DNA from: a virus
Strand: one strand, 5' to 3'
Virus record (IMG/VR): IMGVR_UViG_3300048582_000096
Span: 1 to 33,659 of that record
Length of the DNA: 33,659 nucleotides
The position numbers were made by a program, and so were the translations under genes. Below the pieces are notes generated by a model. It made no database searches and had not been told where the DNA came from. It saw only the letters and a list, made by a program, of their open reading frames with translations. Position 1 is the first letter of the stretch, and each line of letters starts with the position of its first letter. Below, one piece after another: positions 8,957 to 12,376 of the stretch.

Positions 8957-9127
8957 ATGGCAATAAAAACACAAAAAAGAATAGAACGAGAAAATCGTAA
9001 TAAGAAAATAATAGCTTTATTTAATAAGCTTAATATAAACGGCTCCGATAAAATGGCTGTTTGCGAACTGGTAGCTAAAAAACTAAACTTTAAAGCTAGT
9101 TTAGTTTATAGGGTTGTAAATAGTTAA
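8957..9127 (+). CDS. Small basic protein, possible helix-turn-helix
   Basis: 56 residues. The N-terminus is strongly basic (KTQKRIERENRNKK). The C-terminus, AVCELVAKKLNFKASLVYRVV, looks like a helix-turn-helix in which the last helix would read DNA. This may be the phage regulator acting at the divergent promoter. Its TAA stop lies inside the GTTAAC box that opens the first attC-like element, as in integron cassettes whose genes end in attC. Confidence 0.6.
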   Translation: MAIKTQKRIERENRNKKIIALFNKLNINGSDKMAVCELVAKKLNFKASLVYRVVNS

Positions 9128-9185
9128 CGGTTTTGGGGCTTGGCAAAGTTGCCGAACACAAAACTTCATTAGAATTACAAATGTT
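9124..9185 (+). repeat. attC-like element E1, left half only
   Basis: Opens GTTAAC, a 5-base spacer GGTTT, then TGGGGCTTGGCAAAGTTGCC (9135-9154). It continues into the 18-base loop motif ATTAGAATTACAAATGTT (9168-9185), also found in E2. A matching right arm with GTTA is missing before the next gene, so the element is truncated, or its partner lies beyond the next genes: the right side of E2 also carries AAAACCC and GCCCC segments. Confidence 0.4.
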
Positions 9186-9215
9186 TAAATTAAGATACAA
9201 TGTCAAACGAAGAAA

Positions 9216-9449
9216 ATGACAGATACGGAAATTAAAGAAGAGTGCTTAAAAGAAGCAGGAATGGATTTAGGTAGTTATAGCTATTCTGAGCTACAAACTA
9301 TCTTTGAGGCAATGAGGAGATACCACAACGCTAAATTAAAAAAATTACCTATAACTGATGCTATAGGGTCGGTTTGCGATTGCGGTGCAAATGGTTGCTT
9401 GATAACTGTTTGTTCAAGATGTTGCAGAAACTATACTGGAGCAGCATAA
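9216..9449 (+). CDS. Cassette gene, small cysteine-rich protein
   Basis: 77 residues. The N-terminus is helical (KEECLKEAGMDLGSYSYSEL then EAMRRYHNAKLKK). The C-terminus has a cysteine cluster, CDCGANGCLITVCSRCC, able to form a zinc site. A remnant TATAAC box (9461-9466) follows the stop without a right arm. It shares the CDCG start of its zinc motif with the next gene, suggesting related cargo. Function unknown. Confidence 0.55.
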   Translation: MTDTEIKEECLKEAGMDLGSYSYSELQTIFEAMRRYHNAKLKKLPITDAIGSVCDCGANGCLITVCSRCCRNYTGAA

Positions 9450-9494
9450 GCAAACTGTATTATAACTGTACTCATGTGGGCGTAGTGCGATATA

Positions 9495-9743
9495 ATGGAA
9501 GAACAAAAATTAAGACAGTTATTCAGAAACAGAAGCAACTGTTATGTGGACACAGATGATGTAGTGCAAGGAATGGATGAAAATTGCTTTATTGAAACCG
9601 TAAACGAAGCATTACGCCTACATGATGTTAGTGGGCGAAGCGAACAGTTAGTTTGCGACTGTGGAAGTAGCCACATGACTTGGTATGGCAATGATGATAA
9701 TAAGCAATGGTTTTGTTTTAATTGTAAGAAAGAAGCAAACTAA
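9495..9743 (+). CDS. Cassette gene, small zinc-ribbon protein
   Basis: 82 residues. The C-terminal 30 residues, CDCGSSHMTWYGNDDNKQWF followed by CFNCKKEAN, form a clean CxC...CxxC zinc ribbon. The N-terminal 50 residues are helical and charged, without a known domain. The stop TAA (9741-9743) precedes the E2 opening box by 7 bases, so gene and element form a cassette-like unit. A nucleic-acid-binding role is possible from the ribbon alone. Confidence 0.6.
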   Translation: MEEQKLRQLFRNRSNCYVDTDDVVQGMDENCFIETVNEALRLHDVSGRSEQLVCDCGSSHMTWYGNDDNKQWFCFNCKKEAN

Positions 9744-9750
9744 TTGCCAC

Positions 9751-9877
9751 TAACAGATTGGGGCTTTAAGAAGTTGGGGTTTCAAGGCTCAAATGTTTGT
9801 TAAAGCACTACTGTTGATTAGAATTACAAATGTTGGGGTTAAGCACTTCCGCCCCAATTTATTAAAACCCTTGTTAT
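9751..9877 (+). repeat. attC-like element E2
   Basis: TAAC (9751-9754), 2-base spacer, ATTGGGGC (9757-9764); right arm GCCCCAAT (9851-9858), then 14 bases to GTTAT (9873-9877). Eight perfect pairs, and AAGT/ACTT can pair further in. The loop holds the 18-base motif ATTAGAATTACAAATGTT at 9817-9834, identical to E1. The right spacer is longer than in the other elements. Confidence 0.5.
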
Positions 9878-9929
9878 CTGCTGCTGCGGTTTTCAGGGTA
9901 GGAAGTTTCAAATTTTAAACAAATTAATT

Positions 9930-10484
9930 ATGTCTTACACAGAGATTTACAAATTCAAAAAAGATGGCAATGCTGAATGTTTTGCCGAAGTTAAAAATGC
10001 TTTTCGTGGTGCAATGGCAATTTGGACTAATATAGAAAAACGCTACTTACCAAAATACATACCTACTTGGGCAATGGGTGATACATCAAAAGAGTATAGC
10101 CGAACATTTGATTTTATGGGTGGTGGTTTAAAAGAAGTTTGGGCTTTGTTTGATAGTGATAAAATTTCAGAAACCGATAACATTGTGCTTGGAAGCTCAT
10201 TTGATAATGTAGTGGTTATGAAAGATGATTTACCAAAACTTATTGAAGCATTTAGAAACTTTGAGGGCGAAACATCTTTAAAAGAACAGGCAGATTTGAT
10301 TGAAAACGCTTTTAAAAACGATGATGATTTACTTGCTATTGCTTGGAATCAAACATCTGTAAATGGCGATGCTTGGGAATCTGACGAAACTGGGTTAGAT
10401 GAAGATGGTGAAGAAATTTATTTGCCTTACAATTTACTTAAACACGATAAGCACTGGAATCTATTTGAGGTAGAAGTATCTTAG
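9930..10484 (+). CDS. Cassette gene, conserved-looking hypothetical protein
   Basis: 184 residues, acidic and soluble. Opens SYTEIYKFKKDGNAECFAEV, includes RGAMAIWTNIEKRYLP, then VLGSSFDNVVVMKDDLPKLI and a C-terminal acidic turn DETGLDEDGEEIYLPYN. I recall similar proteins scattered through bacteria and phages without known function, but cannot name a family. It lies between E2 and E3 as a complete cassette of about 745 bases, counted between the two GTT boxes. Confidence 0.65.
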   Translation: MSYTEIYKFKKDGNAECFAEVKNAFRGAMAIWTNIEKRYLPKYIPTWAMGDTSKEYSRTFDFMGGGLKEVWALFDSDKISETDNIVLGSSFDNVVVMKDDLPKLIEAFRNFEGETSLKEQADLIENAFKNDDDLLAIAWNQTSVNGDAWESDETGLDEDGEEIYLPYNLLKHDKHWNLFEVEVS

Positions 10485-10492
10485 CAGTTGCA

Positions 10493-10622
10493 GATAACGT
10501 TTTTGCAGCTAAAAGAGGTGGCTGATTAATACCTCGAAATTTAATTAAAAGCACAAAATTATGAATACAGATAAAACTTCATTAGAAAACGAAAACCAGC
10601 CATCTTGTTTAGGTGCTGTTAT
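10493..10622 (+). repeat. attC-like element E3
   Basis: GATAAC (10493-10498), 6-base spacer, GCAGCTAAA (10505-10513), AGA, a 2-base GG bulge, TGGCTG (10519-10524). The right arm is CAGCCA (10597-10602), TCTT, then TTTAGGTGC (10608-10616), one base, GTTAT (10618-10622). Nine pairs with one mismatch, plus four and six pairs. The bulged bases and unequal spacers resemble the extrahelical bases and unpaired spacer of attC. The loop repeats AAAACTTCATTAGAA from E1. Confidence 0.6.
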
Positions 10623-10658
10623 GCGTAGTTTTTTATCACGAATGTTAAATTAACAACA

Positions 10659-11183
10659 ATGAAAACAATAAGAGAATTAAGGGATGTAATGGATTTTTAT
10701 CCAAATGAATTGTCAAGTCAATTAAAATACTTTACAAGACAAAATATTGATTGGAATGTTTACTTGCCAACTAAAGGGAAAAACCTGCAAAGGGATTTTG
10801 TTTGGACTTTAGAACAAAAAAGAGAGTTGATAAATTCAATGCTAATTGGTAGGCATATTCCACACTGTGCAATAGTGAATATAGTTGACCCAAATAATGC
10901 CCATAAAGATATTTTACAAGTTATTGATGGTAAACAAAGATTATCTGCAATGGTTGATTTTTACGAAAACAAATTTACTATTGAATTAGAAGGTAAAGAG
11001 TATTATTTTAAAGATTTACCTAATGATTACCAATTAGCAATAAGCCATTATCACTTTAGGTATTATGTCGTAAATGAACCTTATGGAAGCCCAATGACTG
11101 ATGAGCAAAAAATAAATTGGTTTAAATTTATCAACTTTGCAGGAACTCCGCAAGATGCTGAACATTTACGAGGTCTGTCCTAA
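10659..11183 (+). CDS. Cassette gene, DUF262-type protein
   Basis: 174 residues. It contains QRDFVWTLEQKRELINSML, then IPHCAIVN, then the family signature VIDGKQRLSAMVDF (about residues 88-101). This is the DUF262 N-terminal domain (ParB/sulfiredoxin-like fold, DGQQR motif) known from GmrS/GmrSD and other modification-dependent restriction or defence proteins. The C-terminal HNH-type domain of GmrSD enzymes is absent, so this is a stand-alone or shortened form. Carried between E3 and the E4 left arm. A defence or counter-defence role is inference. Confidence 0.78.
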   Translation: MKTIRELRDVMDFYPNELSSQLKYFTRQNIDWNVYLPTKGKNLQRDFVWTLEQKRELINSMLIGRHIPHCAIVNIVDPNNAHKDILQVIDGKQRLSAMVDFYENKFTIELEGKEYYFKDLPNDYQLAISHYHFRYYVVNEPYGSPMTDEQKINWFKFINFAGTPQDAEHLRGLS

Positions 11184-11191
11184 AATTACGC

Positions 11192-11621
11192 ATAACTGCT
11201 GGGTGTATGAAATCGTTAATTAAAAAAGTGTCGGAGGGGAAAATAAAATATTAATAATTTAAAATAAATATAAAATGAAAAGAACAAAAGAAGAAATAGC
11301 TACTGCTATTGAAAAGATTAAAGACAACAAAACTAAATGTGCCAAATTCAATTTTTTTGGAGAAAACAACCATGATAAAATTGATGCAATGTTAGATGTT
11401 TTAGAAAACAATCGTTCAGAAGATTATATCTACAATCATTATCCATCAGAAGATGAAGATGGTGAAGAAGATACAATTTCACATGGGCTTTGGGGTTCTG
11501 CTATTATTGCTTTAGAATTTATGAGAGGAGAAAATGAATTAAAGGATTTGCTTTATCCAGAAATATAGGTATGCGTTTAGGTGTAGGTGGCTTTTAATTA
11601 ATGTTTTATACACCATGTTAA
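11192..11621 (+). repeat. attC-like element E4 with a gene between its arms
   Basis: Left half: ATAAC (11192-11196), 5-base spacer TGCTG, GGTGTAT then GAAA (11202-11212). Right half: TTTTATACACC (11604-11614), 2-base spacer AT, GTTAA (11617-11621). The arms pair over 11 positions (ten Watson-Crick, one G-T). The 5-versus-AT spacer pattern is that of E6 and E7, which argues that the halves belong together although 391 bases, including the gene at 11275-11568, separate them. Confidence 0.45.
11275..11568 (+). CDS. Cassette gene, small acidic protein
   Basis: 97 residues. The N-terminus is KRTKEEIATAIEKIKDNKTK, then CAKFNFFGENNHDKIDAMLDVL, a very acidic stretch SEDEDGEEDT and a helical end IIALEFMRGENELKDLLYPE. 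Seen before as a hypothetical protein type in phages and mobile DNA, as far as I can recall, with no function. It is unusual in lying inside the two arms of E4. A DNA-mimic role is conceivable from the acidic patch but not supported further. Confidence 0.6.
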   Translation: MKRTKEEIATAIEKIKDNKTKCAKFNFFGENNHDKIDAMLDVLENNRSEDYIYNHYPSEDEDGEEDTISHGLWGSAIIALEFMRGENELKDLLYPEI

Positions 11622-11681
11622 CAGAAGTGCGCTATTACGATAGCAAATTAGCCATACCAATCGGAGCGCATTTTTGTTAAC
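11617..11681 (+). repeat. attC-like element E5, gene-less unit
   Basis: GTTAACAGAAGTGCGCT (11617-11633) pairs with AGCGCATTTTTGTTAAC (11665-11681): 15 of 17 positions Watson-Crick and the other two G-T. The loop is 31 bases. The opening GTTAAC is also the closing box of E4, and the closing GTTAAC is the opening box of E6, giving a 59-base repeat-to-repeat unit without a gene. Confidence 0.6.
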
Positions 11682-11801
11682 GGCCGCAAGTTTGGTTTGT
11701 GTTTGCGTTAACCGATAAAGTAATTTAAAGCAATAACAATAATTAACAGAATAATAAATTAGAAAGCACTTCGGCAAACATTAATTAAACTTGATGTTAT
11801 A
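11676..11801 (+). repeat. attC-like element E6
   Basis: GTTAAC (11676-11681), 5-base spacer GGCCG, CAAGTTT (11687-11693), 6 bases, TGTTTGC (11700-11706). The right arm is GCAAACA (11774-11780), TTAATT, AAACTTG (11787-11793), 2-base spacer AT, GTTATA (11796-11801). The two blocks of seven pairs are perfect, and the six bases between them pair with G-T pairs and one mismatch. Loop about 67 bases. Confidence 0.65.
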
Positions 11802-11822
11802 AGCCGTTTATTTTTATTAAAA

Positions 11823-12029
11823 ATGAAAAAAGTATTTGTAGTAAATTTTGATGAATCTGTAATATTTAAAACTAGAATGGATAACCCATTTTATGATGAA
11901 AAATATGAAACTTTTGAAGAGGCAAAAGAGCAACTAGTAAGCTATTGGGACAATGTTTTGGCAGGCGCAAAAAACAACTTAAAGGGTGCAAAAAAAATGA
12001 AATTAATTAATGTGCAGGTTATGCCTTAA
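11823..12029 (+). CDS. Cassette gene, small unknown protein
   Basis: 68 residues. Starts KKVFVVNFDESVIFKTRM, then YETFEEAKEQLVSYWDNVL, and ends with a basic strand KKMKLINVQVM. It looks like a small alpha/beta protein. Lies 21 bases after the E6 closing box, and its stop is 6 bases before the E7 opening box, making a compact cassette of about 350 bases. No family recognised. Confidence 0.6.
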   Translation: MKKVFVVNFDESVIFKTRMDNPFYDEKYETFEEAKEQLVSYWDNVLAGAKNNLKGAKKMKLINVQVMP

Positions 12030-12035
12030 ATGGCT

Positions 12036-12153
12036 TATAACGGCGACAAGTTTGTTTTTGTGCGCCTTACTTGCAAGAAATGCACTAACAGAATTTAATT
12101 AGATAACAGAATATTAACCGATTCGCACAGCATAAAACAAACTTGATGTTATA
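12036..12153 (+). repeat. attC-like element E7
   Basis: TATAAC (12036-12041), 5-base spacer GGCGA, CAAGTTTGTTTT (12047-12058), T, GTGCG (12060-12064). The right arm is CGCAC (12124-12128), five bases, AAAACAAACTTG (12134-12145), 2-base spacer AT, GTTATA (12148-12153). Twelve perfect pairs plus five more past an internal bulge. This is the clearest attC-like fold in the array, and its outer arm is shared with E6. Confidence 0.7.
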
Positions 12154-12179
12154 GGCTGATGCGGATAAAAGTAAGAATT

Positions 12180-12329
12180 ATGAAAATAACAGTAAAAGCA
12201 AAAGAGGTAGAAATTGAAATGGACGACCAAAACACAGAAAGCTTTAATAAGTACGATTCCAGAGTTGACTTTGTAATTAAAATAGTTAAAGCTATGACTG
12301 ATGAATGTTTAAAATTATTAGATAAATAG
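12180..12329 (+). CDS. Cassette gene, 49-residue protein
   Basis: 49 residues: KITVKAKEVEIEMDDQNTES, then FVIKIVKAMTDECLKLLDK. A short strand-helix protein with no recognised family. It starts 26 bases after the E7 closing box and is followed by a TATAAC box (12349), so it occupies the expected gene position of a cassette. A minus-strand frame of 64 codons overlaps here but has no such context. Confidence 0.5.
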   Translation: MKITVKAKEVEIEMDDQNTESFNKYDSRVDFVIKIVKAMTDECLKLLDK

Positions 12330-12348
12330 GTGTCGATTAGCATTTGCC

Positions 12349-12376
12349 TATAACTTACTTATATATATAGTATAAC
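12349..12376 (+). repeat. Remnant attC-like box E8 at the array end
   Basis: TATAAC at 12349-12354 follows the last cassette gene as elsewhere, but no matching right arm is present. An alternating TATATATATA run (12359-12369) and a second TATAAC (12371-12376) in the same orientation lie between it and the next gene. It looks like a decayed or chimeric end of the array. Confidence 0.3.

Follow-up and report, generated by a model that had tools for sequence, protein, structure and literature searches.

The IMG/VR virus record IMGVR_UViG_3300048582_000096 comprises 33,659 bases, which we analyzed over their full length and refer to as the window. Genes for terminase, portal, major capsid protein, tape measure, endolysin, primase and helicase lie on the - strand around an array that occupies approximately positions 9126-12354 of the + strand and is flanked by two - strand blocks; the carrier is a tailed phage of Bacteroidota-type bacteria. 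Within the array we identified six paired sites (E1-E6) as well as two half-sites (E0 and E7), all on the + strand and with small genes between them, as in integron cassette arrays and in clusters of attC sites lacking an integrase (CALINs), here located within a phage genome. CALINs are known in virulent phages, such as Polaribacter phage P12002L (Qi et al. 2023, PMC9892861). A profile search for the integron integrase (TIGR02249) returned no match in the record, which is possibly incomplete and as it stands does not hold a complete integron, and an Rfam search likewise returned no match. Arrays of attC-like sites without an integrase, such as the one carried by this tailed phage, have been described in phages before. 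Its features are as follows, where "box chain" denotes complementarity between the right box of one site and the left box of the next.

9126-9128, + strand: left box of E0, a half-site for which no right half was found
9464-9629, + strand: E1, 166-nt site; arms paired at 15/17; box chain of 8 nt to E2
9752-9875, + strand: E2, 124-nt site; arms 16/19; box chains of 8 and 9 nt
10496-10620, + strand: E3, 125-nt site in front of the DUF262 gene; arms 19/23; box chains of 9 and 10 nt
10659-11183, + strand: gene with DUF262 / GmrSD_N domain, 174 aa (Pfam PF03235, E=3.1e-14), in the unit upstream of E4
11187-11196, + strand: E4 left box TACGCATAAC, directly behind the DUF262 gene, with AAC at 11194-11196; putative unit boundary
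11202-11226, + strand: E4 left arm GGTGTATGAAATCGTTAATTAAAA
11275-11568, + strand: 97-aa gene in the E4 loop, an open reading frame (ORF) with tblastn homologues
11571-11587, + strand: TATGC GTTTA GGTGTA, possibly the decayed remains of a compact site's left half; it lacks AAC and matches the right arm over 6 nt at a spacing of 5 nt
11592-11619, + strand: E4 right arm TTTTAATTAATGTTTTATACACC (11592-11614), which pairs with the left arm, followed by the spacer AT and the GTT box
11617-11681, + strand: gene-less spacer bounded by the inverted repeat GTTAACAGAAGTGCGCT / AGCGCATTTTTGTTAAC
11679-11798, + strand: E5, 120-nt site; arms 15/20; box chains of 7 and 10 nt
12039-12150, + strand: E6, 112-nt site; 12 contiguous arm pairs; box chains of 10 and 9 nt
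12352-12354, + strand: left box of E7, with a 9-nt chain to E6

Core boxes of attC sites are inverted and follow RYYYAAC / GTTRRRY. The E4 boxes GCATAAC and GTTAACA carry the invariant AAC and GTT and match this consensus only partly, with the left half reading GCATAAC, a 5-nt spacer TGCTG and the left arm, and the right half reading the right arm, AT and GTTAACA (GTT at 11617-11619). The original prediction, made from the sequence by eye, was that these halves pair over 11 positions with 5/AT spacers; the pairing proved to extend well beyond this, to 21 of 24 aligned columns, the three differences being one bulged G and two mismatches. The stem is imperfect in the manner of attC sites: its spacers (5/2) are unpaired, and the left arm has an extrahelical base, the bulged G. 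The asymmetry of the spacers differs from classical attC. From AAC to GTT, E4 spans 426 nt, outside the 57-141 bp of published attC sites (PMC5371416); E2, E3, E5 and E6 measure 112-125 nt.

When all candidates in the window with strict 5/AT geometry were ranked, E4 came third of 1,535, below E6 and a cross-pair formed by the left half of E5 and the right half of E6, and with full-arm scoring it was the best arm pair of the array, with a score of 31 that is raised by the palindromic TTAATTAA. The highest score among 621,254 AAC/GTT pairs of like geometry in 1.29 Mb of other viral DNA was 23, and 0 of 5000 double shuffles of the E4 arms reached the observed value. We also considered E5-left/E6-right as a second case of a gene within a loop and rejected it, as both sites have better local partners. 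E5 and E6 arm patterns were found in none of the viral or genome contigs searched.

The boxes tie E4 to both of its neighbors. Its left box complements 10 nt at the 5' end of GTTATGCGTA, the right box before it at 10618, and its right box pairs over 7 nt with the left box of E5. In an all-vs.-all matrix, every right box (6/6) complements the next left box best, with 8, 9, 10, 7, 10 and 9 contiguous nt at the six junctions, and such a chain is expected of a cassette array, because the end of a unit complements its own other box. The corresponding arm-by-arm matrix is strongest on its diagonal, except that the right half of E6 pairs well with the left half of E5 too. A combined test of arms plus chain (chain of at least 9 nt) gave 0 hits in the 1.29 Mb background, 5 in the window and 6 in a stretch of Polaribacter phage P12002S. 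That the E4 pairing is chance complementarity in AT-rich DNA, with no hairpin element present, appears very improbable: the pairing is indeed partly AT-only and palindromic, but the background maximum stays well below the E4 score and the 10-nt and 7-nt chains reach both neighbors.

Several observations concern the remaining sites. Flavobacterium phage filifjonk9-1 has an intact site (rc 32739) that the left arm of E0 resembles, and ATTAGAATTACAAATGTT is common to the E0 and E2 loops (9126-9200 and 9830-9850). A 30-codon ORF (10567-10660) begins in the E3 loop and crosses the right half of E3. Behind the right box of E1 (9627-9660) and of several P12002 sites (L158 rc 12695, 17944 and 18208; L157 rc 16196) lies a shared stretch, GTTA....CGAAG.GAAC.GTTA, which in some sites is read in the same frame within an ORF (VSxRSExL). 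The 17-nt inverted repeat around the gene-less spacer includes the E4 right box and the E5 left box.

The gene reported between the E4 halves is borne out as well: its 97-aa product shares 51% identity over 69 aa with proteins of Bacteroides phages DAC16, DAC23 and SJC03 (tblastn), and because of these homologues we regard the ORF as a gene rather than noise in a loop. It matches no Pfam and no PHROG family, and close relatives were absent from the viral contigs, genome contigs and plasmids searched. The DUF262 gene upstream is 59% identical to that of Cellulophaga phage Nekkels and is, like the Nekkels version (176 aa), a short form with the GmrSD N-terminal domain only. The proposed search for homologues with flanking DNA yielded relatives of both genes, while comparable sites were absent at the loci examined for phage relatives of the DUF262 gene and of the array gene at 9930-10484. 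An 84% identical relative of the latter lies amid replication genes of another phage (L154), at a locus with no comparable site; array genes can therefore occur outside arrays too.

We searched viral and genome contigs with arm patterns for E4 arms lying adjacent, as in an empty site, and among the matches listed found neither an empty nor a second copy of E4: the right-arm pattern TTTNATACACCATGTTAA gave 25 matches in viral contigs, 0 of them with an E4-like left partner, and the looser pattern AAACTTGATGTTATA gave no real site among the matches listed. The arrangement named beforehand as contrary evidence, in which each half belongs to a different intact element in related genomes, was not seen either.

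One alternative account is that E4 was an ordinary compact site into whose loop a foreign gene was inserted once, for example at TTAATTAA, leaving a dead site and an accidental layout. With the flanks joined, E4 does form a compact hairpin of good folding energy, TTAATTAA stands on both sides of the insert as a possible target duplication, and attC sites are known insertion targets of group IIC introns (PMC7923331). However, TTAATTAA is needed by the arm pairing in any case and is common in AT-rich DNA, the insert contains no transposase, intron or terminal repeats, and like layouts recur in independent phages (see below), such that a single accident is not needed. We consider this account improbable.

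The substrate in attC recombination is a folded single strand, and the predicted folding of E4 is equivocal. With its arms joined, E4 folds well (z = -4.4, compared with -3.3 for E6), whereas the predicted fold of the whole 441-nt strand leaves the E4 arms unpaired (z = -0.45), and in its minimum-energy fold the right arm pairs with GGTGTA at 11581. This last pairing suggests the main alternative account, in which each E4 half comes from a different site, both sites having arms of one family: the right half of the site on the DUF262 side would be lost, and a compact site with a decayed left box, at approximately 11571-11623, would belong to the 97-aa gene. In keeping with this, GGTGTA sits 5 nt behind a box-like position just past the stop codon, the usual place of a left box; arms can be shared between neighbors, as E5-left pairs with E6-right across a gene, which makes a cross-pair of two sites a real alternative for E4; and the half-site E0 at 9126 likewise stands without a right half. 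On the other hand, two separate losses are required, the putative left box has no AAC, which is present in every other site, and only 6 nt are paired, against 21/24 for the assigned partner. A 6-nt match anchored in this way occurs at 7% of random places, and the direct repeat in this register falls short of significance (as found in 17% of random segments). Overall, we regard two broken sites as rather unlikely.

To define where units begin and end, we compared possible boundaries within the window and between sister phages. The classical integron cassette consists of a gene followed by attC, with exchange at the GTT box behind the hairpin, and the integron integrase recombines at G^TT of the 3' box. 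Dividing the array from GTT to GTT, however, cuts one gene, merges the DUF262 and 97-aa genes and leaves one unit gene-less, whereas AAC-to-AAC units hold one whole gene each (8/8). Related phages favor the same division. The Muminvirus arrays of four Flavobacterium phages (filifjonk9-1, mumin6-1, mymlan6-1 and tooticki6-1) have 5-6/2 spacers and 10-nt chains, and a unit present in filifjonk9-1, GCGGTTAAC/GTTTGGTGG...gene...TTGCATAAC/GTTATCAGG (slashes marking junctions), is absent in tooticki6-1, where GCGGTTAAC/GTTATCAGG are directly joined. All 5 Muminvirus junction sets examined (5/5) fall in the AAC box or a few adjacent bases, and between Polaribacter phages P12002L and P12002S most junctions lie at the AAC box, with one inside a left arm; taking the two groups together, nearly all junctions are in the AAC box that directly follows a stop codon. 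Cassette presence/absence with AAC-box junctions was seen in Muminvirus phages L167, L169, L170 and L171.

Because presence/absence junctions fall at the AAC box, the natural unit would appear to run from AAC to AAC rather than from GTT to GTT. The positions of the junctions are observed, and the enzyme responsible we infer; given the TAACGTT microhomology at the junctions, homologous recombination between boxes may also have produced them. If units run in this way, the E4 unit would be 11194-11679, with one gene inside the loop of its own hairpin, and the E4 hairpin, originally assigned to the DUF262 gene, would instead be placed in the 97-aa gene's own unit. A DUF262 cassette carrying two genes was likewise dropped once the AAC junctions emerged. 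Muminvirus units of differing content share the backbone end AAC/TACAATATTACATG, which looks like an attI-like fixed end and suggests by analogy that E7, with its comparable AAC, is probably the normal end of the array rather than a broken site.

Wide sites with genes in them also occur beyond E4, over a range of 166-403 nt in E1 and in P12002L and P12002S. In the window, ORF 9495-9743 begins within the E1 loop and reads on through the E1 right arm; E1 had been thought to lack a right partner, which is not the case for the AAC at 9464, whose partner lies at 9612-9629 inside the next ORF, but does describe the half-site at 9126. In P12002L, the annotated gene gp57 (44 aa) lies within a 194-nt site and gp41 (50 aa) within a 203-nt site, the stop codon of gp41 being 6 nt beyond GTT, and both sites have P12002S copies. 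In P12002S, the loop of a 403-nt site contains the start of an HNH endonuclease gene together with its HNH domain (residues 17-70), the coding sequence extends over the right arm, and further wide sites of 192-199 nt behave similarly. Since start codons may be misannotated, ORFs merely starting inside sites of normal length (<=127 nt, such as Muminvirus methyltransferases) were left out. The nearest thing to a comparison of empty and filled sites may be a compact 56-nt site and the filled 203-nt site of P12002L, which share the left spacer GGACGA, the right spacer ATT and the box GTTACCT. Wide loops are not general among arrays, as no convincing wide site and no gene wholly in a loop was found in the Muminvirus arrays.

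The original prediction had offered two options for E4, a gene that entered the hairpin loop or a normal site with a wide loop and cargo inside it. We favor the latter on account of the recurrence of the layout (E1; gp57 and gp41 in P12002L with their P12002S copies; the HNH gene of P12002S), while the AAC junctions oppose the layout of a gene followed by its downstream site. Taken together, we estimate a probability of roughly 0.6 that the two E4 halves form a single attC-like hairpin for recombination whose loop is unusually large, within a cassette array that lacks an integrase and is carried by a tailed phage of the Bacteroidota type. Against a single hairpin stand the unfavorable fold of the 441-nt strand, the nearer partner GGTGTA at 11581, the lack of an empty or second copy, of an integrase and of wide Muminvirus sites.

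Under the single-hairpin reading, the E4 unit would extend from AAC 11194 behind the DUF262 gene to AAC 11679, with the 97-aa gene between the left and right halves of the hairpin, in the position of the variable terminal loop, and a short gene-less spacer at the end. A host-supplied recombinase (an integron integrase or similar) would act on the folded single strand, and units would be exchanged at the AAC/GTT box adjoining the upstream stop codon; both the recombination of E4 itself and the identity of this enzyme are putative. The gene may have been inserted in the loop, or the right half may have been displaced. More broadly, we suggest tentatively, as a possibility on the doubtful side, that Bacteroidota phages use cassettes with the gene as the hairpin loop, exchanging hairpin-plus-gene units at the AAC box behind stop codons instead of gene-plus-hairpin cassettes.

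Such sites would matter in several respects. As attC finders assume compact hairpins, sites that enclose genes would be missed and arrays mis-segmented; and if a hairpin can enclose its own gene, then views of where cassettes begin and end, of how they are expressed and of how new ones arise, which is still unexplained, need to be reconsidered. Junctions between sister phages additionally provide a direct, sequence-level view of the positions at which units are cut in phage arrays.

With respect to known systems, the array as a whole would appear, judging from its sequence, to work like an attC array, with E4 exceeding the usual length. In a limited literature search, we found no description of an attC loop containing a whole gene, nor of junctions at the AAC box. 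Group IIC-attC introns and the E4 insert are alike in being DNA inserted into an attC stem-loop, but the former carry a ribozyme and a maturase, whereas the latter consists of one gene (97 aa) and shows no mobility features. The Muminvirus arrays share with the window their 5-6/2 spacers, 10-nt box chains and one gene per AAC-to-AAC unit, and include one E0-like site; unlike E4, their well-supported sites are compact (61-126 nt), without a gene wholly in the loop. Closest are the published phage CALINs such as that of P12002L, in which recombination by IntI1 was shown for 1 of 2 tested sites (PMC9892861), and which resemble this array in their tailed-phage setting, their chained attC-like sites between small accessory genes and their lack of an integrase. 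In contrast to these published arrays, E4 encloses a whole gene within its 426 nt, and the junctions in related phages lie at the AAC box rather than at the GTT box that follows the hairpin.
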